A DNA stretch of 64,000 nucleotides from Ornithinimicrobium tianjinense (lineage in GTDB: Bacteria; Actinomycetota; Actinomycetes; Actinomycetales; Dermatophilaceae): assembly GCF_014636495.1 (NCBI RefSeq), contig NZ_BMEM01000001.1, positions 62,001 to 126,000 on the forward strand, written 5' to 3'. Both the position numbers and the translations under genes were made by a program. The notes beneath the pieces are model-generated. The model made no database searches and was not told the DNA's origin. It saw only the letters and a program-made list of their open reading frames with translations. Shown here in pieces: positions 5,021 to 59,996 of the stretch (positions within the stretch are counted from its first letter, which is position 1; each line of letters begins with the position of its first letter).

Positions 5021-5965
5021 ATGAACGACTCGGTAGCCACCGAGCAGCGACCCGCACGCACCAAGCCCGTCCGTCGGGTGGGTGACATCGTCTTCGGGGG
5101 CGCGTCTCTCGGGTCGGCCGTGCTCATCCTGCTCACGCTCGTCGGCGTGGCCGTCTTCCTGGTCATCAAGGCGATGCCGGCGCTCACCGCCGATCCCGCC
5201 GAGATCAGCGGTGGGAAGGGCTTCTTCTCGTACGTCTGGCCGCTGGTGTTCGGCACGGTGGTCTGCTCGCTCATCGCCATGGTGCTCGCGACCCCGGTCG
5301 CCGTCGGCATCGCGCTGTTCGTCTCCCACTACTCCCCTCGACGGCTGGGCGCGGGGATCGGCTTCGTGATCGACCTGCTGGCCGCCGTCCCCTCCGTCGT
5401 CTTCGGCATGTGGGGTATGGCGGTCTTCGCGCCGAAGCTCTTCCCCCTCTACGGCTGGCTGGAGGACAACCTCGGCTTCATCCCCCTCTTCGGTGAGGCC
5501 TCGGCCTCGGGGCGGACGATCCTGACCGCCTCGATCGTGCTCGCGGTGATGATCCTGCCGATCATCACCTCGGTCTCGCGCGAGGTCTTCCTGCAGACGC
5601 CGCGGCTGCACGAGGAGGCGGCCCTCGCCCTCGGTGCCACCCGGTGGGAGATGATCCGCACCGCCGTCCTGCCCTTCGGGATGCCGGGCGTCGTCGGCGG
5701 CACCATGCTGGGTCTGGGCAGGGCGCTCGGGGAGACGATGGCTGTCGCGATCATCCTCTCGCCCAACGTCTTCACCTGGAACTTCATCGGCTCGGGCAAC
5801 CAGACCATCCCGGCCGAGATCGCGCTCCACTTCCCCGAGGCGTCCGGCCTGCGGCTGGCCGAGCTGATCGCCGCCGGGCTCGTCCTCTTCGTGATCACCC
5901 TGGCCGTCAACCTCTTCGCGCGGTGGATCGTCGACCGTCGCGCCGAGTTCTCCGGAGCCAACTGA
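5021..5965 (+). CDS. pstC: Phosphate ABC transporter permease PstC
   Basis: 314 residues, six predicted membrane helices, with the binding-protein-dependent permease (EAA) loop [14 protein letters not shown] near residue 200 that contacts PstB. ATG at 5021 is preferred over an upstream in-frame TTG (5003), because GAAGGA sits 6 bases before it and the longer N-terminus would overlap that site. PstC pairs with PstA to form the phosphate channel. Its stop overlaps the pstA start (TGATG), so the two subunits are probably made in equal amounts by coupled translation. Confidence 0.95.
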
Positions 5966-7113
5966 TGAGCATCCAGACCGACCCGCACCAGGGCGACATC
6001 CACCACGCCCGGTTGGACGACTACAGCGGCGTGGTGCCCTCCCCGGTCCGGCCCACCACCGGCCGCCCGGCGCAGCTCCTCGGCCTGGGGGCCCTGGCCC
6101 TCGCGGTCGTGGGCTGGCAGATCTTCGACCTGCACCTCGGAGCGGCGCTCGCTGGCGCCTTCGTCCTCTACCTGGTCGCGGTCTACCTCGTGTACCGCTC
6201 GCTCGGCGGCCCTCGCGTGGCCGTCGACCAGCTGATGCGGGCGCTGGTCTACTTCGCCTTCGTCTGCGCCGTCCTGCCGCTGATCTCGCTGCTGTGGACC
6301 GTCCTGGCGGAGGGCGCCGCCAAGATCGTCTCGCCGGCCTTCCTCACCCAGACCATGAACGGCGTCACGGGCCTGCACGACCAGGCCTACGTGGAGGGCA
6401 CCGGACCGTTCATCGGCGGCGCCTACCACGCCATCATCGGCACGCTCATCGTGACCGGCCTGGCGACACTCATCTCCGTCCCGATCGGCATGTTCACCGC
6501 CATCTACCTCGTCGAGTACGGCAACAAGGGCCGGCTGGCCCGCTGGATCCGGTTCTTCGTCGACGTGATGACCGGCATCCCCTCCATCGTGGCAGGCCTC
6601 TTCGCGTTCGCGCTGTTCAGCCAGATCTTCGGGATCCGCGACGCCAAGATGGGCCTGGCGGGCGCGGTCGCGCTGGCGGTCCTGATGATCCCCACGGTCG
6701 TCCGCAACAGCGAGGAGATGCTCCGCATCGTGCCCAACGAGCTGCGCGAGGCCGCGCTGGCGCTCGGGGTGCCGAAGTGGCGCACCGTCGTCAAGGTGGT
6801 CCTCCCGACCGCCGCCTCGGGCCTGGCCTCCGGGATCACGCTGGCGATCGCGCGCGTCATCGGCGAGACGGCGCCGCTGCTGGTCGCCATCGGCTACGCG
6901 CGGGGCCTGAACTGGAACGCCTTCGAGAACGCCATGACCACGCTCGCCGTCTACGCCTACTCGATGTTCACCAAGCCGCTCAGCCCGGCGGTGCGCGAGC
7001 CCAGCCTCGAGCGCGCGTGGGCGGCTGCGCTCATGCTCGTCCTGATCGTCGTGGCGCTCAACCTGCTCGCGCGCCTCATTGCCAAGATGTTCGCGCCGAA
7101 GACCGGCCGCTGA
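5965..7113 (+). CDS. pstA: Phosphate ABC transporter permease PstA
   Basis: 382 residues, longer than typical PstA (about 300) because of an N-terminal extension of about 80 residues that begins with a soluble, Asp/His-rich stretch and adds extra membrane helices. The core permease domain carries the EAA loop [14 protein letters not shown] (about 263). Start ATG at 5965 overlaps the pstC stop; the frame is open upstream but that part is inside pstC. Forms the transmembrane phosphate channel with PstC and is energised by PstB. The extended N-terminus is common in actinobacterial PstA. Confidence 0.94.
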
Positions 7114-7148
7114 CCGCTCGACCTCTCCAAGAAAGAGACGCACACACG

Positions 7149-7928
7149 ATGTCCAAGCGAATCGACGTCAAGGACCTTGACATCTTCTACGGCAACTTCC
7201 AGGCCGTGAAGGGCGTCAGCATGTCGATCGAGCCCCGGTCGGTCACCGCGTTCATCGGCCCGTCGGGCTGCGGCAAGTCGACCTTCCTGCGCACCCTCAA
7301 CCGCATGCACGAGGTCATCCCCGGTGCGCGCGTCGAGGGTGAGGTGCTCATCGACGGGCAGAACCTCTACGGCAAGGACGTCGACCCGGTCGACGTGCGC
7401 CGCCAGGTCGGCATGGTCTTCCAGCGCCCCAACCCCTTCCCGACGATGTCCATCAAGGAGAACGTCCTCGCGGGTGTCCGGCTCAACTCCAAGCGCCTGT
7501 CCTCCAAGGCCGGCGACGAGCTCGCCGAGAAGGCCCTGCGCGGCGCCAACCTGTGGAACGAGGTCAAGGACCGCCTCGACAAGCCCGGCTCCGGCCTCTC
7601 CGGCGGTCAGCAGCAGCGCCTGTGCATCGCCCGGGCGATCGCGATCCAGCCCGAGGTCATCCTCATGGACGAGCCCTGTTCGGCCCTCGACCCGATCTCG
7701 ACCCTGGCCATCGAGGACCTCATCAACGACCTGAAGACCGACTACACCGTCGTGATCGTCACCCACAACATGCAGCAGGCCGCGCGCGTCTCCGACAAGA
7801 CCGGCTTCTTCAACCTCGAGGCCACCGGCAAGCCGGGCGAGCTCGTCGAGTACGACACCACCCAGACGATCTTCAACAACCCGGCCAAGAAGGCCACCGA
7901 GGACTACATCTCCGGCCGCTTCGGCTGA
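7149..7928 (+). CDS. pstB: Phosphate ABC transporter ATPase PstB
   Basis: 259 residues, the standard length. ABC ATPase motifs are complete: Walker [10 protein letters not shown] (about 38), Q-loop VFQRPNPFP (typical of PstB), signature LSGGQQQR (about 151), Walker B VILMDEP, and the switch histidine in VTHNM. It hydrolyses ATP at the cytoplasmic face to drive phosphate import through PstCA. ATG at 7149 follows AAGAAAGAG. It closes the operon; no phoU follows it, and instead a tandem palindromic repeat ends the transcription unit. Confidence 0.97.
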
Positions 7929-7940
7929 TCCGCATCCCGG

Positions 7941-8037
7941 GGCGTGCCGGAGCCACTCACCTGAGTGGGACCTGCCCGGCATACCCGCGAGCGGCGTGCC
8001 GAAGCCACTCACCGGAGTGGGACCTGCCCGGCACCCG
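7941..8037. repeat. Two tandem copies of a ~45-bp palindromic (REP-like) unit
   Basis: Unit 1 (7941-7987) and unit 2 (7993-8037) start 52 bases apart and are nearly identical. Each has an inner palindrome (CCACTCACCTGAGTGG at 7953-7968, CCACTCACCGGAGTGG at 8005-8020), followed by GACCTGCCCGGCA. In unit 1 the flanks TGCCGG / CCGGCA also pair. The array fills the gap between pstB and the LprG-like gene and could act as a terminator or be a dispersed repetitive element; I see no third copy in the window. Confidence 0.75.
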
Positions 8038-8084
8038 TGGTCCGGCGCGCGCCGGGGCGGCCGGAGCGGCGGCATACTGACCAC

Positions 8085-8795
8085 ATGAGTCGTCGCTCGC
8101 GGTCCGTGGTCGCCCTCGCACTGGGTGCGAGCCTCGCCCTGGCTGCGTGCAGCGACGGAGAGGACGACACCACGACGACGAGCGCGCCTACCGCCGCGGA
8201 CCGGCTGGCCCAGGCGCACGACGTGCTCGTCGATGCCGGTACCGTGCACCTCGCCATGACCGGGACAGAGCTCCCGGAGGACGAGAACAGCTACATCATC
8301 AGTGCCGTCGGCGACGGGACGATGGAGCCGCCCGCGTTCACCGGCACGATCACCGCCAAGCTCGCGGGGATCCAGGCCGACGTGCCGACGGTCGCCCTCG
8401 ACGGGGACCTGTGGGTCAAGCTGCCGTTCGCGCCGGCCTACGTCAACACCGACCCGGCCACCCTCAACGTGCCCGACCCGGCCACCCTGTTCGACCCGGA
8501 GAGCGGGCTCGTGGGCCTTCTCCCGCAGACGCAGGACCCGCAGTTCGGGGAGCAGGCCCGCGCCGGCGCCGAGGTGGTCCAGGAGGTCACCGGCACGCTG
8601 CCCGGCGAGGCGGTGACCGAGCTGCTCATGGTCGGGGACGCGGCGTCGCCCTTCGACGTGACCTACGGCCTGGTCGAGGAGAGCTGGCAGGTGCGCACGG
8701 TCGAGATCACCGGGCCGTTCTACCCGCCGGCGACGTCGACCTACACGCTGACGCTCGACGCCTACGGCGCGCCGGTCACCGTGACGAAGCCCTGA
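8085..8795 (+). CDS. LprG/LppX-family lipoprotein
   Basis: 236 residues. Signal peptide with lipobox LAAC (Cys at about residue 22), then a Thr-rich tether and an LppX/LprAFG-type domain, a half-barrel with a hydrophobic pocket that binds acylated lipids in mycobacterial LprG. Start ATG at 8085. The next gene begins 1 base after its stop and is a 14-helix MFS exporter resembling P55. The same lipoprotein-plus-transporter pair in mycobacteria (lprG-Rv1410c) moves triacylglycerides and lipoglycans toward the outer envelope. By analogy this protein should extract or carry lipids delivered by the transporter; the lipid in this organism is unknown. Confidence 0.8.
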   Translation: MSRRSRSVVALALGASLALAACSDGEDDTTTTSAPTAADRLAQAHDVLVDAGTVHLAMTGTELPEDENSYIISAVGDGTMEPPAFTGTITAKLAGIQADVPTVALDGDLWVKLPFAPAYVNTDPATLNVPDPATLFDPESGLVGLLPQTQDPQFGEQARAGAEVVQEVTGTLPGEAVTELLMVGDAASPFDVTYGLVEESWQVRTVEITGPFYPPATSTYTLTLDAYGAPVTVTKP

Positions 8796-8796
8796 C

Positions 8797-10533
8797 GTGC
8801 TGCGGGGGGCGCACGCGCTGCTGACGGTGGCCGCGCTGGCCGTCGCGCTGGCCGCAGCCGACACCTACGTGGTCGTGCTGGCGCTGACCGACATGATGGC
8901 CGGGGTGGGGGTCGGCATCGAATCCCTGCAGAAGGGGACGCCGATCATCTCCGGCTTCCTGCTCGGCTACGTCGCGGTGCTCCCGCTCATCGGCCGGGTG
9001 TCCGACCTGATGGACCGGCGCCGCATCCTCACCTGGTGCCTGGTGGTCTTCGTGCTCGGCTCGGCGGTCACGGCCGTCGCGGTCGAGCTGCCCGTCATGG
9101 TGGGTGGCCGCCTCCTGCAGGGGCTCGGCGGAGGCGGTCTCGTGCCCGCGACCCTGGCGCTCGTGGCGGACCTGTGGCCCCCCGGCCGCCGAGGTATGCC
9201 GCTCGGCATCGTCGGCGCCGTCCAGGAGCTGGGCTCGGTGCTGGGTCCCCTGCTCGGCGCGCTGGTGCTGGCCGTCGCCGGCTGGCGCGAGATCTTCTGG
9301 CTCAACGTGCTCCTCGGCCTCCTGTGCCTCGGCGCCCTCCACCTCATGACCCGGCGCCCCACCCCCGCCCCACCTCCCACCCCCGCCCCACCTTCCACCC
9401 CCACCGGGCGCGCGGAGTGGTGGCGCCGGGCGACGGCATACCTCGTGGGAATCCTTGCCCTGACCCTGACGGCGCTCACGCTCTGGGCTCCCGAGCTGCT
9501 CACCTCCTCGATCGCGCTCGGTGGACCGTTCGTGCCCTTCGACCCGGCCAGCGGGTCACGGGCGCTGACCCCGATCGGGGCGGTAGCCGCGGGTGCGTGG
9601 CTGCTGCTCGGGGTCCTCACCCTCGGACGCTGGCTGCCGCTCCTGCTGCGCGCCGACCTGCTGGGGGCCACGCTGCTCGCCGTGGCGCTGGGGTCGCTCG
9701 TGCTGACCTTCTCCACCGCGGACCCCGAGTCGGAGGTCCTGGGGCCTTGGGGCGCCTGGCTGCTGCCGGTCGGTGGCCTCGCAGCCCTGGCCTTCCTGCT
9801 GCGGCAGCGGCTGGCGGCCGATCCGCTCATCCCGCACGGCGTGGTCCGCGGTCGCGTCTGGCCGGCGCTGCTTGTCAGCGTGCTCGTCGGCGCGGCGATC
9901 GTCGCGGTGGTGGTCGACGTCCCCCTCCTCTCGCGCCTCACGCAGGGCACCGACGAGACCGACGCGGCGCTGGTGCTGGTCCGGTTCCTCGTCGCCGTGC
10001 CGGTCGGCGCGGTGCTCGGCGGCTGGTTGCTGCGGCGGGTCGGCCCCGCGCTCGTCGCCGCACCCGGCCTCGCGGTCACCGCGGTGTCGGTGCTGGCGAT
10101 GGCCCGCTGGGAGCGTTCGTCGCTCGACGAGCTCGTGGCCACCACCGTTCCGCTCGTCGGAGCCGGCCTCGGTGTCGGCCTGGCGATCGCACCGGTCAAC
10201 GACGCGGCTCTCGCCGACGCCCGCGACGACGGCCACGGCACCGTCAGCTCGCTCGTCGTGGTCGCCAGGATGGTCGGGATGGTCGTGGGCCTGGCGCTCC
10301 TGACCTCCGTCGGGCTGCGACGCTTCCACGACGAGGTCGGCCGGCTCCCCGACCCCACGGACACGGAGGCCCTCCTCGACGCGGCGGTCGTCCAGGTCCA
10401 GACGGTCCTCACCGGTGCCGGGTATGCCGCGGCCCTCGCCGCGGTCCTCGCGCTCGCCCTCGGCCTGCGGCCGGTCGGGCACGGGAGGGCGGTCCGCCAC
10501 GGTCAGGACGACGGGGCTCGCACTCACGCCTAA
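8797..10533 (+). CDS. MFS exporter, P55 (Rv1410)-like
   Basis: 578 residues with about 14 membrane helices, the size and topology of the DHA2/P55 group. The MFS signature loop between helices 2 and 3 reads GRVSDLMDRRRIL (about 66), and the helix-4/5 region has LLQGLGGGGLVPA and a GxxxGPxxGG-like antiporter motif (GSVLGPLLGALV). A proline-rich cytosolic linker (about 188-203) separates the halves. GTG start at 8797, 1 base after the LprG-like stop, indicates translational coupling with that lipoprotein. Mycobacterial P55 works with LprG in lipid export and affects drug tolerance; the same role is inferred here from gene order. Confidence 0.8.
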   Translation: MLRGAHALLTVAALAVALAAADTYVVVLALTDMMAGVGVGIESLQKGTPIISGFLLGYVAVLPLIGRVSDLMDRRRILTWCLVVFVLGSAVTAVAVELPVMVGGRLLQGLGGGGLVPATLALVADLWPPGRRGMPLGIVGAVQELGSVLGPLLGALVLAVAGWREIFWLNVLLGLLCLGALHLMTRRPTPAPPPTPAPPSTPTGRAEWWRRATAYLVGILALTLTALTLWAPELLTSSIALGGPFVPFDPASGSRALTPIGAVAAGAWLLLGVLTLGRWLPLLLRADLLGATLLAVALGSLVLTFSTADPESEVLGPWGAWLLPVGGLAALAFLLRQRLAADPLIPHGVVRGRVWPALLVSVLVGAAIVAVVVDVPLLSRLTQGTDETDAALVLVRFLVAVPVGAVLGGWLLRRVGPALVAAPGLAVTAVSVLAMARWERSSLDELVATTVPLVGAGLGVGLAIAPVNDAALADARDDGHGTVSSLVVVARMVGMVVGLALLTSVGLRRFHDEVGRLPDPTDTEALLDAAVVQVQTVLTGAGYAAALAAVLALALGLRPVGHGRAVRHGQDDGARTHA

Positions 10534-10535
10534 AA

Positions 10536-10549
10536 TCTTGACGTCAAGA
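10536..10549 (+). promoter_or_regulatory. Perfect 14-bp palindrome, MarR-type operator candidate
   Basis: TCTTGACGTCAAGA, fully palindromic and AT-richer than its surroundings, overlapping the end of the P55-like gene and lying 30-43 bases before the next MFS gene. The TTGACNTCAA-like core resembles operators of MarR-family repressors of drug exporters. The cognate regulator is not adjacent. Confidence 0.55.
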
Positions 10550-10578
10550 CACCTGGCACCCTGCGGCTGAGGAGGACG

Positions 10579-11820
10579 ATGTACCGCCAGCTCTTCTGGC
10601 CCGTCCTCGCACCGTCGATGCTCTTCTCCACCGGCGCTGGTGCCACGGTGCCGGTGATGGTGCTCGCTGCCGTGGAAGCGGGAGCCTCGACGGCCTTCGC
10701 CAGCCTCATCGTCGCCCTCGTCGGGGTCGTGGCCCTGCTGACCACGGTCTCCGCGGGTCAGCTCATCGACCGGCTGGGCGACCGTCGTGCGATGGCGCTC
10801 GCGACGGCCTGGGCCGCGGTGTCGATCGGCGGCACGGTGGTGGCCCTGGTCGGTGAGGCGCGGTGGTCCCTCGGTCTTTTCGTCCTGTCCGCCGTGCTCC
10901 GGGCCCCTGCCGTCAACGTCTGGAACCTCGCCCGACAGGCTCTGGTGGCCGACACCATGCCCACCGAGCAGCTCGGCCGGGCGATGACCGCGCTGGGCGG
11001 CACGATGCGCGTCGGCTCCCTCGTGGGTCCCCTGTGCGGCGCGCTGCTGCTCCTGCGGCTGCCGCTCTGGTCGGTCTACGTTTTCAGCCTGGTGTGCGCG
11101 CTGCTCTCCCTGGCGATCCTCTACAGCCCGCGCGGTGCCACGCTCGAAGGACATCGTCACCCGGTGGTCCCGCAGGAGGACGGCGACGCTGGCGCACCGG
11201 CCTCGGGTCGGGGCATCCGCTCCCTCCAGGTGCGCTGGCCCGCGGTGATCCTCGCCGGCGCCGCGATCTCGGCGCTCTCGCTGGTGAGGGTCTCCCACCC
11301 CGTGGTGCTGCAGGTCTGGGGCGTCCACCTCGGCCTGACCGCCTCCACCATCTCCCTGCTCGTCGCGCTGATCGCCACCATCGAGCTCGTCCTGATGTTC
11401 CCGGGCGGCTACCTCAAGGACCGGCTGGGGCGCGCACCCGTCCTCATCGCCTGCCTCACCCTGCTCGGGGCCAGCTTCGTGCTGATGCCGCTGCTGCCCA
11501 ACGTGCCCGGGCTCGTCGGCGCGGTCGTCGTCGCCGCCGTCGGCAACGGCCTCGGTGCCGGGATCAACATGACGATCGGGGCCGACCTGAGCCCGCCCGT
11601 GGGCCGCGGCCGCTTCCTCGGCGTCTGGGCGGTGTTCAGCAACGTCGGCGTCGTCGCGGGGCCCGGCCTCGTGGCAGCCGTGCTCGTCGTGGCCAGCGTC
11701 CAGGCAGCCCTGCTCGGCATCGCGGCAGTAGCCCTGGGCGGAGCCCTGTGGATGGCCGCCTGGGCCAGGACGGTGGACCTGCCCCGGGGCACCGGGCGCG
11801 GCATACCATCAGGACCATGA
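10579..11820 (+). CDS. MFS transporter, 12-helix
   Basis: 413 residues with 12 predicted membrane helices and MFS loop motifs GQLIDRLGDRRA (after helix 2) and GYLKDRLGRAP (after helix 8), consistent with a drug/metabolite:H+ antiporter. ATG at 10579 follows a strong GAGGAGG site. Upstream is a palindromic operator candidate, so expression may be inducible. The stop overlaps the ATG of the HhH-GPD gene (ATGA). Substrate is not predictable from sequence. Confidence 0.85.
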   Translation: MYRQLFWPVLAPSMLFSTGAGATVPVMVLAAVEAGASTAFASLIVALVGVVALLTTVSAGQLIDRLGDRRAMALATAWAAVSIGGTVVALVGEARWSLGLFVLSAVLRAPAVNVWNLARQALVADTMPTEQLGRAMTALGGTMRVGSLVGPLCGALLLLRLPLWSVYVFSLVCALLSLAILYSPRGATLEGHRHPVVPQEDGDAGAPASGRGIRSLQVRWPAVILAGAAISALSLVRVSHPVVLQVWGVHLGLTASTISLLVALIATIELVLMFPGGYLKDRLGRAPVLIACLTLLGASFVLMPLLPNVPGLVGAVVVAAVGNGLGAGINMTIGADLSPPVGRGRFLGVWAVFSNVGVVAGPGLVAAVLVVASVQAALLGIAAVALGGALWMAAWARTVDLPRGTGRGIPSGP

Positions 11821-13714: not shown

Positions 13715-13751
13715 TCCGGGCCCCGGAACCTGACCGACCGTCCACGACGGG

Positions 13752-13829
13752 CATCGTGCCCGGGCATCTCGCACTGGCACCCCGCACTGGCATCGTGCGC
13801 TGGCACCTCGCACTGGCATCTCGCACTGG
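13752..13829. repeat. 13-bp tandem direct repeat, five units plus a degenerate sixth
   Basis: Units at 13765, 13778, 13791, 13804 and 13817, consensus CAYCTCGCACTGG; the unit before them (13752-13764) is degenerate. The array is intergenic, downstream of two convergent genes. The open frame through it is not a plausible protein. It resembles iterons or a minisatellite; no replication gene is nearby. Confidence 0.8.
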
Positions 13830-13867
13830 CTCGTCGGTCCTGCGCGCAGGGGCCGCTGAGCCGGACC

Positions 13868-50320: not shown

Positions 50321-51106
50321 GTGCTCCGCAGACGTCTGGCCACCCCGGGTCCCACCGCGCAGCACGGTCAGCAGCTCGCCGACGAGTTCGACCGTGCCGC
50401 CGACCGCTATGACCTGCTGACCCGGCTCAACCCGGGCTACCACCGTGCCCTGCGGACGGCGGCGCGCGAGCTGGTCTCGCTCCTGCCGCCCGGCGCTGAC
50501 GGGCGGCCCCTCGTGCTGTGGGACCTCGGCTGCGGCTCCGGCCTGTCCACCCGTGCCCTGGTCGACGCGGCGGGCGAGGATGCCCGCGTCGTGGCGCTCG
50601 ACGCCTCCGAGGGGATGCTGCGCCAGGCCCGGGCCAAGACCTGGCCGGCCGGGGTCCGCTTCGTGCGGGCCTTCGCCCAGGACCTGCCCGAGGTGGCCAG
50701 CGAGCACGAGGTGGGCGAGAGCGACGGTGCGTTCGCGGCATACCTGCTCCGCAACGTCCCGGAGGAGCAGCGCGACGAGGTGGTGGCCGCGATCCGCGAC
50801 CAGGTGCGCCCCGGCGGCTGGGTGGCGCTGCAGGACTACCACGTCAAGGGCGACCGCGTCGCGACCGCCGTCTGGACGGCCGTCTGCTGGGGCGTGGTGA
50901 CGCCGCTCGCGGTCCTCGTGCGGGGCAACCCGACGATCTACCGCTACCTGTGGCGCAGCGTGCTCGACAACGACAGCACCGCCCAGCTGGAGGACCGCCT
51001 GAGGCGGGCCGGCCTCACCGACATCCGCAGGCGCACTGGCCCCGGCTGGCAGCGCGGCATCCTGCACACGGTCCTGGCCCGCCGACCCGAGAGCGACCCG
51101 ACATGA
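50321..51106 (+). CDS. crtT: SAM-dependent methyltransferase, CrtT-like
   Basis: 261 residues, class I methyltransferase of the UbiE type. SAM-binding motif I WDLGCGSGLSTR (about 69), acidic residue in VVALDASEGMLRQAR (about 92). N-terminus ADEFDRAADRYDLLTRLNPGYH resembles CrtT from the Streptomyces isorenieratene cluster, where crtY-crtT-crtU are neighbours. GTG at 50321. The stop overlaps the crtU start (ATGA), so the two are coupled. The reaction of CrtT is not firmly established; the aromatic-ring methyl shift itself is done by CrtU. Confidence 0.75.
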   Translation: MLRRRLATPGPTAQHGQQLADEFDRAADRYDLLTRLNPGYHRALRTAARELVSLLPPGADGRPLVLWDLGCGSGLSTRALVDAAGEDARVVALDASEGMLRQARAKTWPAGVRFVRAFAQDLPEVASEHEVGESDGAFAAYLLRNVPEEQRDEVVAAIRDQVRPGGWVALQDYHVKGDRVATAVWTAVCWGVVTPLAVLVRGNPTIYRYLWRSVLDNDSTAQLEDRLRRAGLTDIRRRTGPGWQRGILHTVLARRPESDPT

Positions 51107-52776
51107 GCCGACCCACCTCACCCGCCTCGCCCGGCCGGGACCGCGCCGCGGTCCTGCATCGGGCCGAGCCAGGAGCCGAGCGTGCGGCTGGTCAGCACGC
51201 GGTCGTCGTCGGTGGCGGCATCGCCGGCCTGGCTGCGGCGACGATCCTCGCCGAGCGGGGGGTGCGCGTCACTCTCCTGGAGGCCTGCGACCAGCTGGGC
51301 GGCCGGGTCCGCGCGTGGCCGGTCGGGGGTGACGGTGACGGCCGCACGATGAGCCGCGGCTTCCACGCCTTCTTCCGGCAGTACTACACGCTGCGCGCCC
51401 TGCTCCGCCGCACCGACCCGCAGCTCCGGCACCTCGTGCCCGTGCCCGACTACCCCCTGCGCCGGGGCGACGGCCTGACCGACAGCTTCGCGGCCCTGCC
51501 CCTCACCCCGCCGGTCAACCTCGCGGCCTTCGTCGTGCGCAGCCCCACCTTCCCGGTCTCGGCGCTCCCGCAGGTGCACCTGCCCAGCGCCATCGAGCTC
51601 GTCTCGGTCTCCTACCCCGAGAGCCACGAGCGCTACGACGGCGAGTCGGCCCAGGACTTCCTGGACCGGCTCCGCTTTCCCGACGGCGCCCGGCACCTCG
51701 CGCTGGAGGTCTTCGCGCGGTCCTTCTTCGCCCACCCGACCGAGTTCGGCGCCGGTGAGCTCGTCGGCATGTTCCACACCTACTTCGCCGGCTCGTCCGA
51801 GGGGCTGCTCTTCGACGTGCCCGACGACGACTACGACACGGTGCTGTGGGCACCGCTCGGCCGCTACCTCCAGGGCCTCGGGGTCGACGTCCGCACCGGC
51901 ACGCGGGCGGACGCGCTCTCCCGCTCCGCGGACGGGGTATGGCGCGTCCGCGCCGGCGCCGAGGAGCTCACCTGTGACGCTGTCGTCGTCGCCACCGACC
52001 CGCGGGTCACCCGCGAGTTGCTGCCTCCGCTGGCGCAGGCCGACATCGCCGAGACGGACGACGCTGCCCGCCGCGACTGGCACCGGCGGCTGGCCGCCGG
52101 CCGCAACGCGCCGCCCTTCGCCGTGCTCCGGCTGTGGCTGGACGGATTGGTCGAGCCGGGGCGGGAGGCCTTCCTGGGCACCAGCGGCTACGACCTGCTC
52201 GACAACGTCACCGTCCTGGAGCGCTTCGAGCAGGGGGCGGCCGACTGGGCGCGCGAGCACGGAGGCTCGGTGGTGGAGCTGCACGCCTACGCCACCGACC
52301 CGCAACGGGACGCCGACCTGGCGGGCGACGGACCGCGGGGTCTGGACACCGGCCGGCTGCGCACCCGCCTCCTGGACGCGCTGCACGACGTCTACCCCGA
52401 GACGCGGGGGCTGGGGACGCTGCACGAGGAGCTGCTCGTCGAGGACGACTGCGGGCTGGTCGGCACCGGGCCGTGGCGCGACCGGCTCACCGTGGACACC
52501 CCCTACCCTGGCCTGGCTCTCGCCGGCGACGGCCTGCGGGTGGACTGGCCGATCGCGCTCATGGAGCGGGCCGCGGTCACCGGCGTGCTGGCCGCCAACC
52601 ACCTGCTTCGCGCATGGGGCGTCCGAGGTGAGGACGTCTGGACCGTGCCGCTTCAGGGTGTGCTGAGACGCCGGCCCGACGTGCTGCGACATGGGCCGGA
52701 CGTGCGCGCCGCAGGAGCGGCCGTGGCGCGCACCGCGCGCGCCGTGCGCCACCGCATACCCCTCCCGCGACGATGA
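51103..52776 (+). CDS. crtU: Carotene desaturase/methyltransferase CrtU (aromatic-ring synthase)
   Basis: 557 residues. FAD-binding Rossmann VVVGGGIAGLAAA (about 28) and LGGRVRAW; then the CrtU-specific blocks SRGFHAFFRQYY (about 84), SDYPLRRG-like PDYPLRRGDGLTDSF, FARSFFAHP, MFHTYFAGSSEGLLFDVPDD (about 225) and a C-terminal LALAGDGLRVDWPIALMERA (FAD). CrtU converts beta-ionone rings to phi-type aromatic rings, giving isorenieratene from beta-carotene through desaturation with a methyl shift. ATG at 51103, overlapping crtT; its stop overlaps the P450 start. The C-terminal tail of about 40 residues is basic. Confidence 0.85.
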   Translation: MSRPTSPASPGRDRAAVLHRAEPGAERAAGQHAVVVGGGIAGLAAATILAERGVRVTLLEACDQLGGRVRAWPVGGDGDGRTMSRGFHAFFRQYYTLRALLRRTDPQLRHLVPVPDYPLRRGDGLTDSFAALPLTPPVNLAAFVVRSPTFPVSALPQVHLPSAIELVSVSYPESHERYDGESAQDFLDRLRFPDGARHLALEVFARSFFAHPTEFGAGELVGMFHTYFAGSSEGLLFDVPDDDYDTVLWAPLGRYLQGLGVDVRTGTRADALSRSADGVWRVRAGAEELTCDAVVVATDPRVTRELLPPLAQADIAETDDAARRDWHRRLAAGRNAPPFAVLRLWLDGLVEPGREAFLGTSGYDLLDNVTVLERFEQGAADWAREHGGSVVELHAYATDPQRDADLAGDGPRGLDTGRLRTRLLDALHDVYPETRGLGTLHEELLVEDDCGLVGTGPWRDRLTVDTPYPGLALAGDGLRVDWPIALMERAAVTGVLAANHLLRAWGVRGEDVWTVPLQGVLRRRPDVLRHGPDVRAAGAAVARTARAVRHRIPLPRR

Positions 52777-54005
52777 CCGCCAGGCGGCGAGCGGTCCGAC
52801 CCGGTGAACCGAGCGCACCGCGGGTGGAGCGGCAGGGTGCGGACGGCAGGACGGGGGTGAGCACCGTCTGGCGTGTGCGCTCGCTCGAGGTCGCGCGACA
52901 GGTGCTGCGCGCCCGCCACGCCACGACGCAGGCCGGGTTCACCGCCGAGGCGATCCCCAAGGGCCGGCTCAAGCACCACCCGATCCTCGTCTCGGACGGG
53001 CCGCTCCACGACGAGCAGCGCAGCAAGGTGGCGCGGTTCTTCGCGCCGGTGGTCGTGGCCGAGCGCTACACCCCGCAGATGGAGGAGTGCGCTGAGCGGC
53101 TCCTGGACGGCGCACGTGACAGGGGCCGCCTGGTGCTCGACGAGCTGGCGCTGCACTACACCGTCGAGGTGACGGCGGAGGTCGTCGGCCTCACGGCGTC
53201 GTCCGTCCCGAAGATGTCTCGCCGCCTCGTGAGCTTCTTCCGACAGCCGCCCTTCGACATCACCCGGCGCGACCTCGGCCGCACCCGGCAGCAGTGGATG
53301 GCCGCCGCCGTCAACGGGCTGCTGCCGATCGGCCGCTTCTACCTCGCGGATGTACGGCCCGCGGTCCGCGAGCGCCGCCGCGCGCGGCGGGACGACATCA
53401 TCAGCCACCTCCTCGACCAGGGCTATACCGACGTCGACATCCTCGTCGAGTGCGTCACCTACGGCACGGCCGGCATGGTCACGACGCGTGAGTTCGTCAC
53501 GATGGCGGCCTGGCACCTGCTGCGGGACGACGCACTGCGCTCGCGGTATGCCGTCGCCGGCCAGGAGGAGCGCTTCGCGATCCTCCACGAGATCATCCGG
53601 CTCGAGCCCGTGGTCGGTCACCTCTACCGGCGCGCGCAGGAACCCATCAGCGTCAGGGACGGCGACCGCTCCTGGACCATCGAACCAGGTGACCTGGTCG
53701 ACCTGTGCATCCGCCCGGCCAACGCCGACGCCGAGGCTCTCGGTGCGGACGGTCTCGACCTGTGCCCTGGCCGGGAGCTGCCGAGGGGGGTGAACGCGGC
53801 CGGGCTGAGCTTCGGCGACGGCGCGCACAAGTGCCCTGGCCAGCCGCTGGCGATCCTCGAGTCGGACGTGCTGCTCACCCGCCTGCTGGCGCGCGAGCCG
53901 CGCATCGTGCGCGAGCCCGAGGTCGGGTGGGACGACCTGATCGAGGGCTACACCCTGCGCGGGCTGGAGCTGGAGCTGGCCTCGAGGCCCTCCGGCAGCC
54001 GGTGA
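52773..54005 (+). CDS. Cytochrome P450 in the aromatic-carotenoid operon
   Basis: 410 residues. Heme motif FGDGAHKCPG (about 346-355, proximal Cys), K-helix ExxR in EIIRLEP (about 272), I-helix TYGTAGMVTTRE (about 230). Shorter leader and soluble class I build. ATGA overlap with crtU shows it belongs to the same unit. In Brevibacterium linens a P450 is implicated in ring hydroxylation to 3,3'-dihydroxyisorenieratene; the same job is inferred here. No ferredoxin or reductase is adjacent. Its 3' end overlaps a convergent gene by 58 bases. Confidence 0.88.
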   Translation: MTARRRAVRPGEPSAPRVERQGADGRTGVSTVWRVRSLEVARQVLRARHATTQAGFTAEAIPKGRLKHHPILVSDGPLHDEQRSKVARFFAPVVVAERYTPQMEECAERLLDGARDRGRLVLDELALHYTVEVTAEVVGLTASSVPKMSRRLVSFFRQPPFDITRRDLGRTRQQWMAAAVNGLLPIGRFYLADVRPAVRERRRARRDDIISHLLDQGYTDVDILVECVTYGTAGMVTTREFVTMAAWHLLRDDALRSRYAVAGQEERFAILHEIIRLEPVVGHLYRRAQEPISVRDGDRSWTIEPGDLVDLCIRPANADAEALGADGLDLCPGRELPRGVNAAGLSFGDGAHKCPGQPLAILESDVLLTRLLAREPRIVREPEVGWDDLIEGYTLRGLELELASRPSGSR

Positions 54006-54382
54006 CGGTAGGTCCACGAGGTCAGCGCGGTGCCGAGCATCGCGAGGAGGACCCCGGTGAAGATGTGCAGCGCCCGGTCCCCGAGCTCGCCCAGCCAGAC
54101 CTGCACCGTGACCAGCACGGCCACCGCCAGGGCCAGCGCGACGTTGACCGGTCCCGCCGAGCGCCGCAGCACCAGGTAGACGACCGCCGAGGCCAGGGCC
54201 GCCGCGAGTGTGACCCACGCACCGACCTGGTGGTGCACCAGGTAGCGCGGCTCGCCGCCGAGCGCCGCCGAGGCCCAGCCCGCCTGGCCGATCAGGCAGC
54301 TGAGCACCACGGTGGCGGCGCTGCGCAGCCAGATCAGGTGGGGATGCGGCATACCGGGCAGGCGTCGCGGTCCCTGGCTCAT
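53948..54382 (-). CDS. Small four-helix membrane protein
   Basis: 144 residues with four predicted membrane segments (about 20-40, 50-70, 78-96, 104-122) and a short Ser/Arg tail. ATG at 54382; an internal ATG at residue 11 is also possible. The 3' end runs 58 bases into the P450 gene on the other strand. It stands alone on the minus strand inside a plus-strand carotenoid run, and might organise the pathway in the membrane, but I do not recognise the family. Confidence 0.6.
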   Translation of the reverse strand: MSQGPRRLPGMPHPHLIWLRSAATVVLSCLIGQAGWASAALGGEPRYLVHHQVGAWVTLAAALASAVVYLVLRRSAGPVNVALALAVAVLVTVQVWLGELGDRALHIFTGVLLAMLGTALTSWTYRHRLPEGLEASSSSSPRRV

Positions 54383-54423
54383 GGTTGCCTCCCGGGCACG
54401 TAGGGTCGGCGGTGGAGGTGGAC

Positions 54424-55551
54424 ATGGCTGACGTCGCGGTGGTCGGGCTCGGGCCTGCGGGACGCTCGCTGGCGGCCCGGTGCGCGGCCCGCGGTCTCTC
54501 CGTGATCGCGGTCGACCCGCGCCCCGGGGCCGTGTGGACCCCCACCTACGGCATCTGGGGCGACGAGCTCGGGGATCTGCCGGCCTCCGTGGTGCGGGGC
54601 CGGGCGGAGAACCCGGAGCTGCGGGCCACGGGCGTGCACCCGCTGCGGCGTCCCTATCTCGTCCTGGACAACGCCGCGCTGCAGGCGGCGCTGCCGCTGA
54701 ACGGCGTCGACGTGCGCACCGGACGGCTGGACGACCGGGCCGTCAGTGCGCTGCGGGCGGAGGCGAGGGTCGTGGTCGACGCGCGCGGTGCCAGGCCAGA
54801 GGGGCTGCGGCCGGACGACCCGGCGCCCATGCAGACGGCCTACGGGGTGGTGGTGGCGCTGGAGGTGGCCCGGCCCGCGCTGCAGGGGGCGGAGGCGCTG
54901 CTGATGGACTGGCGCACCGACTGGTCCGAGCAGGAGCGGCCGACGTCGACGCCGACCTTCCTCTACGCCATACCGGTCGGCGACGGGCAGGTCCTGCTCG
55001 AGGAGACCTGCCTGGCGGCCGCGCCGTCCGTGCCGATCGAGGAGCTGAAGACCCGGCTCCGTCGCCGGCTCGCCGCCCGTGGTGCGGATCCGGGCGCCGT
55101 GGACGACCCGGTCGAGCGCGAGATCGTCCGGATCCCCATGCGAGGGAGGGACCGGCCGGCTCCTCCCGGCGTCCTCGCGCTCGGCACCGCAGGACGGGGG
55201 GGCCATCGGGTCACGGGCTACTCCGTCGCTCACGCGCTGCGCGTCGGTGACCGCCTCGCGGCCACCCTCGCGAGGGGCGACGCGCCGACGGTGGTCGACC
55301 AGCTGGACGTGGCGGAGCGCGTCCGAGAGGTGGGTCTGCGGGCGCTGCTGGGACTGAGCACCAGGGGCACGCTGGAGCTCTTCGAGGCCTTCGGCCGGCT
55401 CCCCGTGGCGCGCCAGCGGGCGTTCCTCTCGCGCGACGCGGGGGCTGCCGAGCTGCTGGGCGCGATGTGGGGGATGTTCGCGCAGCTGCCGGCGCGCTCC
55501 AAGGCCGAGCTGATTCGCGTCTCGGCCCTGGGCGTGCTGCCCAAGGGGTGA
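54424..55551 (+). CDS. crtY: Lycopene beta-cyclase (CrtY/CrtL type)
   Basis: 375 residues. N-terminal dinucleotide motif VAVVGLGPAGRSLA (about 4), TPTYGIWGDEL (about 40), QTAYGVVV (about 135), MDWRTDW (about 160), PTFLYAIP (about 175), LLEETCLAA (about 192) and a C-terminal GTAGRGGHRVTGYSVAHALR. Forms both beta rings of beta-carotene from lycopene with FAD. ATG at 54424; GTGs at 54412 and 54418 are alternatives. It faces the idi-crtE gene with a 32-base gap between stops. Confidence 0.87.
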   Translation: MADVAVVGLGPAGRSLAARCAARGLSVIAVDPRPGAVWTPTYGIWGDELGDLPASVVRGRAENPELRATGVHPLRRPYLVLDNAALQAALPLNGVDVRTGRLDDRAVSALRAEARVVVDARGARPEGLRPDDPAPMQTAYGVVVALEVARPALQGAEALLMDWRTDWSEQERPTSTPTFLYAIPVGDGQVLLEETCLAAAPSVPIEELKTRLRRRLAARGADPGAVDDPVEREIVRIPMRGRDRPAPPGVLALGTAGRGGHRVTGYSVAHALRVGDRLAATLARGDAPTVVDQLDVAERVREVGLRALLGLSTRGTLELFEAFGRLPVARQRAFLSRDAGAAELLGAMWGMFAQLPARSKAELIRVSALGVLPKG

Positions 55552-55583: not shown

Positions 55584-57251
55584 TCATGAGGATCGCCACG
55601 CCACCGCGCGGGCCGTCGCGCGCAGGCCCTCGACCCCCTCGGTGGACAACACACCGTCATCGAGCGAAGCCTCCGCAGCGACCATCTCGGCGGCGATCCG
55701 GTCCTCGACCTCCTGGCGCACTCCGGCCTCGAGGAGCGCCGTCTGCAGCAGTGGCACGTCCTCCTCACGTGCGGCGTTCGTCCCGACGCGGGCCATCGCC
55801 GCCGCGGCCGCGCCCGACAGCCGCTCTGCGCCCAGCACCCAGATGAGGGTCGTCTTGCCCTCGCGCAGGTCGTCACCGGACGGCTTGCCGGTCACCGCGT
55901 GGTCACCCCAGACGCCGAGCACGTCGTCCCGCCAGGCGAACGCCCTCCCCAGGTGGTGGCCGAAGCGCGCCAGCACCTCACGCTGCCCCTGGCTCGCCCC
56001 GGCCGCCAGGGCGCCCAGCTGGAGCGGCCGCTCGATCGTGTAGGCGCCCGACTTCAGCGCCGCCACCGCCTCGGAGTGCGCCAGGTCCGTGCGGCGGGCC
56101 GCGGCGCCGGTAAGGTCGGCCCGTTGCCCGACGATCAGCTCCAGGTTGAGCTCGTACCAGTAGTCGAGCAGGGGCGCCGGCAGGTGACGCACCAGCCTGT
56201 CGGCCTCGCTGTGCGCCAGGTCGCCGAGAAGAAGCGCGAGGTTCTCCCCGAAGCGGCTGTCGTCCCCGTGGCCCTGGGCGGCGCGGTGCCGGCTGGCAGC
56301 CACGACGTGCGCGGCGGGTCGGCCGCGGCGCTCCTCCGACTGGTCCATCACGTCGTCGTGGATCAGCGCGAACTCGTGCAGCATCTCCAGCGCGGCCGCC
56401 ACCCGCACCAGGTCGTCGTGCGGTGGGGTGCCAGGGCGCCCACCGCCGGCCACAAACCCCCAGTGGCACATCCGCGGCCGCAGCCGCTTGCCACCGGCAG
56501 CCAGCAGGCCCGCGAGCCACTGCGGCAGGTCGCCCGGCTCGTCCCCCAGTACGTCGGCCGGACCCGCGGGAGCGAGGGAGCTCCATACCCGGCGCGTCCA
56601 CGCCAGCTCGGTGCGGAGCAGCTGCTCGACCGCCCCGAGCGTGACGTCCGCGGACGTGTCCTCAGAGCCGACCTGCCCTCCGGGGCCCGGCGTGCCGGTG
56701 TGCGGAAGCCCGGCGGGTAGGCAGGCCGCCAACCGGGGCACCTGCAGCGCTGCCCATGGGCTCCAGACGCGGGGTGCGGCGGCGACCGCCGACACCAGCT
56801 GCTGCCAGGGCAGCCAGGCGTGCTCCGCGACCTCCTCGGGGTCGGGGTGCAGCTCGCCCCTGACCTCTCCGACCAGCACGGGACACAGCTCGTGCTCGAC
56901 CACGCCGCTGGCGTCGACAGCCTGGTAGCGGAAGTCGGGCAGCACCACGTCCAGGCGCTCGACCGCGACGCCGAGCTCGTCGTGAAGCCGGCGGCGCACG
57001 GCCTGCCCGAGCTCCTCACCCGGCCGCGGGTGGCCGCAGCAGGCGTTCGTCCATACGCCTGACCAGGTGGCCTTGCCCAGCGCTCGACGCGTGACGAGCA
57101 CCTGACCCTCACCGTCGAAGAGGTAGAGGGAGAAGGCCTGGTGCAGCGGCGTCTCGGCGGTGTGCACGGTGGCGCGGGGCGCGGACCCGCACGGGGTCCC
57201 GGCGTCGTCGACGAGGACGACCTCGTCGTCCGCGCTCGCGCTCACGCTCAC
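55584..57251 (-). CDS. idi-crtE: Fused isopentenyl-diphosphate isomerase and GGPP/polyprenyl diphosphate synthase
   Basis: 555 residues in one frame. Residues about 1-185 are a type I IPP isomerase (Nudix fold): catalytic Cys in NACCGHPRPGE, Nudix-box region RRRLHDELGV and catalytic Glu in EHELCPVLVG. Residues about 205-555 are a trans-prenyltransferase: GGKRLRPRM (about 270), first Asp-rich motif IHDDVMDQ (DDxxD, about 310), ARRTDL, GAYTIERPL and second motif WRDDVLGVWGD (about 460). It would isomerise IPP to DMAPP and condense the products, probably to GGPP for carotenoids. GTG at 57251 behind GGAGGGAG. The glycosyltransferase gene ends 20 bases upstream. Confidence 0.88.
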   Translation of the reverse strand: MSVSASADDEVVLVDDAGTPCGSAPRATVHTAETPLHQAFSLYLFDGEGQVLVTRRALGKATWSGVWTNACCGHPRPGEELGQAVRRRLHDELGVAVERLDVVLPDFRYQAVDASGVVEHELCPVLVGEVRGELHPDPEEVAEHAWLPWQQLVSAVAAAPRVWSPWAALQVPRLAACLPAGLPHTGTPGPGGQVGSEDTSADVTLGAVEQLLRTELAWTRRVWSSLAPAGPADVLGDEPGDLPQWLAGLLAAGGKRLRPRMCHWGFVAGGGRPGTPPHDDLVRVAAALEMLHEFALIHDDVMDQSEERRGRPAAHVVAASRHRAAQGHGDDSRFGENLALLLGDLAHSEADRLVRHLPAPLLDYWYELNLELIVGQRADLTGAAARRTDLAHSEAVAALKSGAYTIERPLQLGALAAGASQGQREVLARFGHHLGRAFAWRDDVLGVWGDHAVTGKPSGDDLREGKTTLIWVLGAERLSGAAAAAMARVGTNAAREEDVPLLQTALLEAGVRQEVEDRIAAEMVAAEASLDDGVLSTEGVEGLRATARAVAWRSS

Positions 57252-57271
57252 CCTGCTCCCTCCACTTCCAT

Positions 57272-58504
57272 CTACCCTCGCACAACCCGCTCCATCAGAG
57301 CGGCACCGTCGCGGCCCGGGTCGCGGCCGGCCAGCGAGGCGGCCAGACCAGCTGCCGCCGCGCGGACGGCCGGGTCGGTGATCGCCCGCTCGAGGGCAGC
57401 GTCCAGCCGACGCAGGTCGGCCGTGGGCAGGTGCGCGCCCGCCCCGGCCCACTCCACCCGTCGTCCGATGTCGGCCTTCTCCTCGGTACGCCCCACCTGG
57501 ATGACCGGCACCCCGTGGGCCAGCGCCAGCAGCACCCCGGTCCAGCCGCCGTTGGTCACCATCACGCTCGCGTGCTGCAGCACAGCCCCGTAGGGGACGA
57601 ACCGCTCCACCGCGACACGGTCCGCCACCAGCCCCGGACCGCCGAGCAGGCCGGGGTCGCCGGGTCCCGTGGTGAGGATCCCCGCACCCCGGCTGCGCCG
57701 CAGCACCGTCAGCACCGGACCCAGCAGCTCGCGTGCGTCGGCGCGGAGGGTGCCCTGGGTCGCGAGGACCGGGCCGCCCGCCACCACGTCCTCCCACCAG
57801 GCGGGGGGCTCCCACCCCTGTGGTGCCGGAGGTCGGAGAGCGCCGACGAAGTGGACGTGCGGCGGCAGGGCACGGCGTGGGTACTCCAGCTCGGGGACGC
57901 CGCAGTGCAGGTGCAGCAGCGGTGACAGTGCCGCCTCGAGGACCGGCACGCCGGACGGGGGGAGCCCCGCCTCCTGGCGGAGCACGGCATACACCTGCTG
58001 TGCCCGGGCGAGGACCAGGTGACGGGTCGCGGCGCGCACGACCCTGTTGCGCCGCTGCCAGGCTGGCTCGGTGCGGTAGGGAAGGCCGGCGCCGAAGGGC
58101 GGTGTGTTCTCGTCGGGGAAGTGCAGCGGGCCGTCGCCGAAGCTGACCCACGGCAGATCGAGACGCTCGGCGACCAGCGCGCCGACGTGGCCCAGCGAGT
58201 CGGTGAGCACGACGTCGGGACGGACCTCGTGCGCCAGCGCCAGCCCCCGCGCTACCCGTGCCCTGGCGTCCTCCAGCAGCCAGGTGTAGCGGCGCGAGAC
58301 CTCCCGAAGGCGACCCGACGTCGAGGGGAAGGGGGGTGCCTCGCCCGTGCCACGCAGCTCGGCGGCACTGTGGCTCACGGCGGCGACCAGGTCGTCCGCC
58401 AACCCCCAGTGCACCTCGGCCCCGCGGGCAGCCAGGCCGTCGACGAACGACGCGGCATTGACCGTGTGCGCGTAGATCGGGCTGCTCAGGACGAGAACCC
58501 GCAC
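57272..58504 (-). CDS. GT1-family glycosyltransferase, CrtX-like
   Basis: 410 residues, GT-B fold. N-terminal LVLSSPIYAHTVNAASFVDGLAARGAEV acceptor domain; C-terminal nucleotide-sugar part with VAVERFVPYGAVLQHASVMVTNGGWTGVLLALAHGVPVIQVGR (about 312-355), the UDPGT-like signature with the H...GG(W/S)xxxxE layout. Likely attaches a sugar to a hydroxylated carotenoid, as CrtX does to zeaxanthin, and the neighbouring P450 could supply the hydroxyl. GTG at 58504; idi-crtE follows after 20 bases in the same unit. Donor and acceptor are inferred. Confidence 0.78.
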   Translation of the reverse strand: MRVLVLSSPIYAHTVNAASFVDGLAARGAEVHWGLADDLVAAVSHSAAELRGTGEAPPFPSTSGRLREVSRRYTWLLEDARARVARGLALAHEVRPDVVLTDSLGHVGALVAERLDLPWVSFGDGPLHFPDENTPPFGAGLPYRTEPAWQRRNRVVRAATRHLVLARAQQVYAVLRQEAGLPPSGVPVLEAALSPLLHLHCGVPELEYPRRALPPHVHFVGALRPPAPQGWEPPAWWEDVVAGGPVLATQGTLRADARELLGPVLTVLRRSRGAGILTTGPGDPGLLGGPGLVADRVAVERFVPYGAVLQHASVMVTNGGWTGVLLALAHGVPVIQVGRTEEKADIGRRVEWAGAGAHLPTADLRRLDAALERAITDPAVRAAAAGLAASLAGRDPGRDGAALMERVVRG

Positions 58505-58965: not shown

Positions 58966-59880
58966 CGGCACAAGATGTGGGTCCTGCACGCCGAGGGCAT
59001 GGTCGTGCCCGAGCCGCGCAAACGTCCCAGGTCCTCCTACATCCGCTTCGAGGCCGACCTACCCAACGGGTGCTGGCAGGCCGACATCACCCACTGCTTC
59101 CTGGCCGACGGGACCCGGGTGGAGGTGCTGGACTTCCTGGATGACCATTCCCGCTACCTGCTGTACGCCCGCGCGGCACCGGCGTTCACCGGCCCGATGG
59201 TGGTCGCGGCCCTGCAGGAGCTGATCGACGTCCACGGTGCGCCTGCCTCCACCCTGACCGACAACGGACTGGTCTTCACCGCCCGCCTGGCCGGGCGCAA
59301 GGGCGCCCGCAACGGGTTCGAGAAGTTGCTGCAGGCCCATCAGATCCAGCAGAAGAACGGCCACCCCGGCCACCCGCAGACCCAGGGCAAGATCGAACGC
59401 TTCCACCAGACCCTCAAACGCTGGCTGGCCGCCCGGGCCCGCCCGGGCACGATCAGCGCCCTGCAGGACCAGCTGGATGAGTTCACCGGCTGGTACAACC
59501 ACCAGCGCCCGCACCGCTCCGTCGGGCGCCGCACCCCCGCGGTCGCCTACGCCGCGCTGCCCAAAGCCACGCCCGCCACCCCGGCCGAGCCCGAGTGGCG
59601 CACCCGCACCGACCGCGTCGCCGCCACCGGCACCGTCTCCCTGCGCTACGCCGGCAAGCTGCGCCACCTGGGCATCGGCCGCGCCCACGCCGGCAAACCC
59701 GTCCTGATCCTCATCCAGGACACCCGCGTCATCACCAGCCACGCCGACACCGGCGAGATCCTGGCCGAGCACCACCTCGACGCCGACCGCGACTACCACC
59801 CCGCGACCCGACACCACATCGACGACACCCTGAGTCGCGACATCGACGACACCCCCGCGAACCCACAAAAAAAGCCCTGA
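58966..59880 (+). mobile_element. IS481-family transposase, 5'-truncated
   Basis: About 304 codons remain. The rve integrase core is whole: first Asp in CWQADITHCF (about 35), second Asp in LTDNGLVF (about 96), and Glu in QGKIERFHQTLKRW (about 139), the DDE triad of IS481. The C-terminal domain (RYAGKLRHLGIGRAHAG) is also kept. The N-terminal HTH domain (about 100 residues) is missing: upstream of codon HKMWVLHAEG there is an in-frame TGA at 58963. Start ATG at 58975 is only the first Met left. The element is therefore dead or needs help in trans. Confidence 0.85.

Positions 59881-59919: not shown

Positions 59920-59996
<77 letters not shown>

Follow-up and report, generated by a model that had tools for sequence, protein, structure and literature searches.

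The fusion gene and its reading frame

One gene in the window (the whole 64,000-nucleotide stretch of DNA analysed) joins a type I IPP isomerase (IDI) to a trans-prenyl diphosphate synthase, and it probably encodes a bifunctional IDI/GGPP synthase for carotenoids with its halves joined by a flexible tether (a reading from sequence to which we assign a probability of about 0.8). The gene lies on the minus strand (55584..57251) and consists of 555 codons and a stop, running from a GTG at 57251 to a TGA at 55584-55586, with translation giving 555 residues and no internal stop. This bears out the single 555-codon frame claimed in an earlier note on this DNA, the coordinates of which were correct although it left the strand unstated; translation of the plus strand of 55584-57251 contained stops. 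The GTG start with a strong Shine-Dalgarno (SD) sequence, also proposed in that note, was confirmed by a GGAGG (57259..57263, minus strand) at a spacing of 7 nt.

Frame length is weak evidence here, because the window has a GC content of 72.5% and long spurious open frames are common in such DNA, the fusion frame remains open upstream as far as 58544, and composition-based gene prediction chose a plus-strand frame at this locus instead of the fusion gene. The case therefore rests on homology and on the conservation of the fusion in many genomes, which together reject a chance open frame. A start at 58544 in the same frame was rejected as the added stretch overlaps a glycosyltransferase gene, and was also disfavoured by the IDI profile beginning at residue 6 of the protein started at 57251. 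GC content at the three codon positions was 0.81/0.52/0.91 over all 555 codons, and in the same frame 0.80/0.50/0.92 for the IDI part and 0.81/0.52/0.91 for the synthase part.

The isomerase half

In the N-terminal half, residues 6-173 (56733..57236, minus strand) form a type I IPP isomerase domain that scored over the cut-offs of NCBIfam NF002995 (245 bits against 127, residues 6-173) and TIGR02150 (149.5 bits against 105.8). It contains H30, H37, C72, H74, Y109, E119, E121 and W166, and each of these was invariant in a 15-row alignment. We take C72, E121, H30, H37, H74 and E119 to be the counterparts of the catalytic and metal residues C67, E116, H25, H32, H69 and E114 of E. coli IDI, and the closest structure found by Foldseek was the E. 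coli IPP isomerase. The earlier claim of a complete type I isomerase is upheld by both profiles and by the conserved catalytic residues, and by its sequence this half looks active as an isomerase.

The synthase half and its product

The C-terminal half is a trans-prenyl diphosphate synthase domain (residues 201-555; 55587..56651, minus strand), identified by PF00348 (146.3 bits against a cut-off of 27, residues 247-498), by its motifs and by its fold. The closest folds in Foldseek were Rv2173 of M. tuberculosis and the GGPP synthase of C. glutamicum, and the match to 8f8k had a TM score of 0.89 by target length, i.e., the all-helical prenyl synthase fold. Both Asp-rich motifs had been claimed. 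The first, DDVMD (residues 299-303), has the canonical form, whereas the second is not DDxxD but a variant of it (DDVLGVWGD, or DDVLG..D, residues 442-450) that also occurs in the solved relatives 3lk5 (C. glutamicum) and 8f8f (M. tuberculosis). D299, D300 and D303 were invariant and D442, D443 and D450 nearly so in the 15-row alignment, in which one row (L021) stops within the synthase at a contig end. The profile score, fold and motif aspartates agree with the claim of a complete synthase, and this half also looks active.

No GGPP-synthase equivalog model scored over its cut-off in the NCBIfam profile search of the fusion protein, and so the assignment of GGPP as the product leans on gene context. 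The CrtE equivalog (NF045685) reached 70.1 bits against a cut-off of 460, and the best-scoring synthase model, the Mycobacterium farnesyl/geranyl synthase NF042416, was likewise below cut-off (214 against 600). The bulk of the residues at positions -4 and -5 before the first Asp-rich motif serves as a chain-length rule for such enzymes, and a small residue at -4 is characteristic of archaeal type I GGPP synthases. Among the fusions with this motif read, position -4 holds Ala or Gly, both small, and the window protein has a bulky residue at -5 only (Phe294, five residues ahead of the motif). From the gene context and this arrangement we infer that the product is GGPP. Two other identities were considered and rejected. 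The cargo polyprenyl transferase of Family 2 encapsulins (NF041169) scored 208.2 bits against a cut-off of 450, and an IDI-squalene synthase fusion did not fit, the C-terminal domain being PF00348 and squalene synthase families being absent among the Pfam and NCBIfam matches of the fusion protein at E up to 0.001.

The linker and expression as a single chain

The two domains are separated by a linker (about residues 178-200; 56652..56720, minus strand) that contains no stop and no usable internal start. An AlphaFold2 model built from a 45-row alignment had a mean pLDDT of 91.8 and a pTM of 0.71 with both domains confident, and residues 184-194, with pLDDT below 50, were predicted to be disordered. 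Judged by aligned length, no chain among the 50 Foldseek matches listed spans both domains. In the window gene there is no in-frame ATG, GTG or TTG between residues 175 and 250, and the in-frame start codons at residues 171 and 174 have no SD, in agreement with the earlier statement that neither a stop nor an alternative SD lies between the domains. Start codons are scattered through the linkers of relatives and four follow an SD-like string (two in L019 and two in L095), but a conserved SD-plus-start was absent from the linkers of the 20 fusions compared; an internal start yielding a free synthase was accordingly rejected. The reading that two complete enzymes are produced as a single polypeptide draws support from homology, from the catalytic residues, from the absence of an internal start and from the conservation of the fusion in many genomes.

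Changed codons in both domains were mostly synonymous between close relatives; between L009 and L011 the synonymous to nonsynonymous counts were 25:7 in the IDI domain, 50:13 in the synthase and 1:7 in the linker. Between the window and its nearest named relative, L008, a much more distant pair whose changed codons were not predominantly synonymous, the raw counts were 39:50, 92:92 and 5:18, respectively. The gap between the domain envelopes was 17-26 residues in the main group of fusions and 37-46 in L018, L019 and L021. These patterns and the structure model fit a fast-evolving, weakly constrained tether rather than a conserved tunnel.

Distribution of the fusion

The earlier note had suggested a survey of domain fusions, and the in-frame fusion proved to recur. 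A single open frame encoded both domains in 14 of the 79 loci from named records (the best 80 of 138 candidate stretches were kept), namely in Ornithinimicrobium (2), Serinicoccus (4), Aeromicrobium, Propioniciclava, Arsenicicoccus, a Propionibacterium MAG, a Propionibacteriaceae MAG, two Actinomycetes MAGs and an Acidimicrobiia MAG in which the locus is cut by the contig end. Among genomes, the fusion was intact in 12 of 31 from the genus of the window and present in 7 of 149 from its family, 2 of 396 from its order, 3 of 394 from its class and 2 of 396 from its phylum. The order, class and phylum surveys used a threshold of E <= 1e-125, scored three candidates per genome and each included the window's genome, so that diverged fusions may have been missed. 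These genome sets overlap and together hold 17 distinct genomes with the fusion, the window's included, some of them from the same species as the named loci; eight are single-contig assemblies (G119, G127, G1225, G1233, G1236, G1244, G535 and G619). All the fusions seen have the IDI ahead of the synthase, and the fusion is retained across 40-70% identity in several families.

In one further single-contig genome (G1229, L132) the coding sequence of the fusion breaks at about residue 285 into two frames that overlap, as either a pseudogene or a sequencing error. A plasmid search matched 225 records, and a single one of them (CP123774.1, L123) covered at least 80% of the query. That record is labelled Bacillus subtilis, from a mixed culture; the stretch has a GC content of 58% and an IDI domain that hardly differs from the one in G362 (of the same order as the window's genome), so that the label is probably wrong and the record probably a misassigned actinobacterial one. 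Its fusion gene, the single annotated copy seen, is named just 'idi', a label that hides the synthase half, and its neighbours are UbiA, a second polyprenyl synthetase and a FAD enzyme, with no crt-named gene annotated in the stretch examined.

Origin and loss of the fusion

A tree of synthase domains (44 rows, with duplicates of the window, L009, L016 and L017 dropped, and L021 and other truncated or short rows excluded from the synthase trees) paired the window synthase with that of G1223 (support 88/83), and placed both in a five-member set together with Aeromicrobium-type fusions (96/93). The G1223 synthase (L131) is 76% identical to the window's and directly follows a glycosyltransferase-like frame, and the type I IDI search gave no IDI match in its locus or genome. 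Standalone synthases of the Mobilicoccus type (L020 type) grouped with the Arsenicicoccus fusion (98/97). The G1223 and Mobilicoccus-type synthases are best read, from their positions in the tree, as losses of the IDI half. Forming the main fusions into one clade without standalone synthases gave p 1e-5 when the G1223 synthase was excluded and 0.047 when it was admitted. G705 (L122) has separate neighbouring idi and synthase genes in different frames, the first ATG of the synthase lying 28 nt past the idi stop, and its synthase falls within or beside the main fusion group; this adjacent pair plausibly pictures the state before fusion.

The fusions of L018 and L019 grouped with Streptomyces-type synthases, and forcing them into the main group cost 41 log-likelihood units for the synthase domain (AU test, p 0.002). 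A single origin of all fusions was rejected on this AU test, for groups that were defined post hoc and with long branches present. The synthase tree thus suggests a second, separate fusion event in the L018/L019 lineage, which the IDI tree neither confirms nor excludes, as it gave four changes at best with well-supported branches forcing at most one.

Carotenoid gene context

The genes around the fusion point to carotenoid synthesis. A UDPGT-type glycosyltransferase gene (57272..58504, minus strand; over cut-off for PF00201 and PF06722, below it for NCBIfam) lies upstream, and L007 and L008 have a relative of it in the corresponding position. A lycopene cyclase gene of the CrtL type (54385..55551, plus strand; PF05834, 155.9 bits against 23.4, with NCBIfam below cut-off) converges on the fusion gene, the two ends being separated by a gap of 32 bp. 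Beyond it on the plus strand are genes for a cytochrome P450 (52773..54005; PF00067), a FAD-dependent amine-oxidase-type oxidoreductase (51103..52776; PF01593) and a UbiE-type methyltransferase (50321..51106; PF01209), with relatives in five, six and five of the 14 fused loci, respectively. In position, the oxidoreductase presumably recalls the CrtU of isorenieratene clusters and the methyltransferase CrtT. A gene on the opposite strand, located between those for the P450 and the cyclase (53948..54382, minus strand), encodes a protein of 144 aa that is hydrophobic by eye and has no Pfam or NCBIfam match; Serinicoccus (L017) carries a relative of it adjoining the P450 gene.

A crtI relative lies just downstream of the fusion in 9 of the 14 fused loci (L007, L009-L013 and L016-L018); the L013 and L017 copies are each in two pieces, and a fragment was found in a tenth locus, L019, at the contig end. 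In L009, L011 and L012 crtI was the sole match within the available DNA. In L008 crtI was not found after the fusion, where genes for a P450, a FAD oxidase and a methyltransferase are present, and L014 gave no match in the about 5 kb examined; L015 and L021 end too soon for downstream context. A match to crtB was found in six fused loci, a lycopene cyclase relative in three and a glycosyltransferase in two. The window cluster itself is without crtI and crtB, and the 32-bp gap has no room for either. These core genes are present in a second carotenoid cluster on another contig, C3 (L086, G000:C3:250001-270000, 5294-10711, minus strand), which encodes a CarH-type regulator, crtE, crtB, crtI and idi in that order, with crtI whole by the family search.

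Isoprenoid supply and other IDI copies

The host encodes Dxr of the MEP pathway, and HMG-CoA reductase was not found in its genome; the role of an IDI would therefore be to rebalance IPP and DMAPP. Type I IDI was detected at 20 places in 19 of the 31 genomes of the genus, with two copies only in the window's genome, and, of the 12 genomes of the genus that hold an intact fusion, 11 yielded no type I IDI besides the fused one. Type II IDI was below cut-off in nine of ten fused genomes searched, including all five searched from the genus. The fused IDI can nevertheless be redundant: the window's genome has separate idi and crtE genes on C3, G056 has an additional standalone type I IDI, and a type II IDI was over cut-off in G362.

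Proposed function and alternatives

In the proposed mechanism the N-terminal half would convert IPP to DMAPP, and the C-terminal half, whose relatives we take to be dimers, would condense one DMAPP with three IPP to form GGPP. With a flexible tether of about 25 residues between the halves, the primer would arise next to the enzyme that consumes it, and C20 synthesis would have its IPP:DMAPP ratio set locally. The GGPP would be taken up by the phytoene synthase and desaturase encoded by crtB and crtI (on the other contig here, with crtI next downstream in most relatives), and the resulting carotenoids would be cyclised, modified and possibly glycosylated. Both activities, the GGPP product and a benefit of proximity are what we infer from the domain and gene-context evidence. 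The separate idi and crtE genes of the genome, the window cluster lacking crtI and crtB, and the IDI-less synthase of G1223 all count against a bifunctional carotenoid enzyme. Each GGPP takes three IPP and one DMAPP, so that a 1:1 fusion supplies the isomerase in excess, and any advantage may come as much from fixed co-expression and local control of the ratio as from transfer. The earlier note had proposed that physical coupling would feed DMAPP directly to chain elongation; the presence of both complete enzymes in one polypeptide is supported, but with a linker that fits a tether and not a tunnel we keep direct channelling of DMAPP as a hypothesis.

The chief alternative is an accidental fusion with no catalytic coupling, in which the halves act independently and joining merely fixes 1:1 expression. 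We consider this a serious contender, at somewhat below even odds: the fast-evolving, predicted-disordered linker, the survival of synthases that lack an IDI in G1223 and among the L020-type relatives of the Arsenicicoccus fusion, and the isomerase excess all agree with it, but the fusion has been kept across wide sequence divergence in several families, seemingly arose more than once and always has the same domain order. The halves might also have been joined by an error of sequencing or assembly, or a frameshift, a concern raised in the earlier note. The separate neighbours of G705 lie in different frames, so that one frame change could mimic a fusion, and the fused gene of G1229 is broken by just such a change; independent assemblies carrying the same in-frame fusion (in the 14 named loci and 17 distinct genomes, eight of them single-contig) nevertheless rule this out, and we give it almost no weight.

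It is unlikely that the synthase makes GPP, FPP or a mixture and that the fusion serves another terpenoid. A farnesyl/geranyl model as best scorer (albeit below cut-off), a best fold match (Rv2173) deposited as a (2E,6E)-farnesyl diphosphate synthase, Phe294 ahead of the first motif and the neighbours of the CP123774.1 fusion would all suit such a product. Against this stand the crtI and crtB genes that relatives carry close to the fusion, the need of a C40 carotenoid cluster for C20, and the small residue at -4. The bifunctional IDI/GGPP synthase for carotenoids remains our preferred reading. A broader form of it, which we hold as possible but doubtful, is that the fusion is a self-contained C5-to-C20 engine that evolved at least twice in actinobacteria and, by holding DMAPP close to the synthase, provides carotenoid synthesis with its own primer supply, isomerisation having become a pigment function where the fused copy is the sole IDI found.

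Comparison with known systems

In a search of the open literature, with most subscription papers outside its reach, no title or abstract opening among the papers listed named a natural IDI-GGPP synthase fusion. No such fusion is described in the accessible parts of PMC2889829 and PMC7432914, and the isoprenoid terms looked for were absent from those of PMC4921024. The nearest systems found were the IDI-squalene synthase (IDISQS) fusions of diatoms and engineered Idi-CrtE assemblies. The diatom fusions are natural, as described in the available portions of PMC12168105 and PMC6723447, and likewise join IDI to a later isoprenoid enzyme, but they are eukaryotic and their partner, squalene synthase, acts further down the pathway, whereas the window fusion is bacterial and its partner belongs to the enzyme class that consumes DMAPP itself. 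In the engineered system the same two activities were joined by RIAD/RIDD peptides to feed carotenoid synthesis, raising the carotenoid titre 5.7-fold in E. coli, and assembly through peptides is stated to have outperformed direct enzyme fusion (PMC6751169). That assembly is man-made, with peptide tags drawing IDI to CrtE at the membrane, whereas the window protein is a natural single chain. Adjacency of crtE and idi in Cronobacter was suggested in the part of PMC3900654 available.

Among the sequences compared, Agrococcus, G705 and contig C3 cover the same pathway steps with separate idi and crtE genes and thus two proteins; the genes are adjacent in Agrococcus and G705 and share one cluster on C3, and the Agrococcus and C3 synthases sit on other branches of the synthase tree than the fusion. 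Rv2173 (8f8k) and the C. glutamicum GGPP synthase (3qqv, 3lk5) share the fold and Asp motifs of the C-terminal half, but have no IDI domain and are 31-36% identical to the fusion in the fold alignments. Fusion of neighbouring isoprenoid enzymes is a known kind of event, within which the IDI-GGPP synthase pairing appears to be new.

The pair that engineers join to raise terpenoid yield has been fused in nature, probably twice by the synthase tree, and the fusion has been retained across wide divergence. On the broader, doubtful reading given above, IPP isomerisation would no longer be a housekeeping step where the fused IDI is the sole isomerase found. The fusions, the adjacent unfused pair of G705 and the lone synthase of G1223 form a natural set of variants for testing the benefit of coupling, and the evolved fusions are available for engineers to try.

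Other features of the window

Just beyond the glycosyltransferase gene lie a tRNA-Pro(cgg) gene (59920-59996, minus strand) and, adjoining it, an IS481-type transposase (58975-59880, plus strand) that scored 162 bits against a cut-off of 224 with the first 100 model positions unmatched. The carotenoid cluster may lie within an island beside the tRNA. Elsewhere in the window, a tandem array (13750-13834) consists of 13-base units in about five copies, which can also be read with a period of 39 bases.
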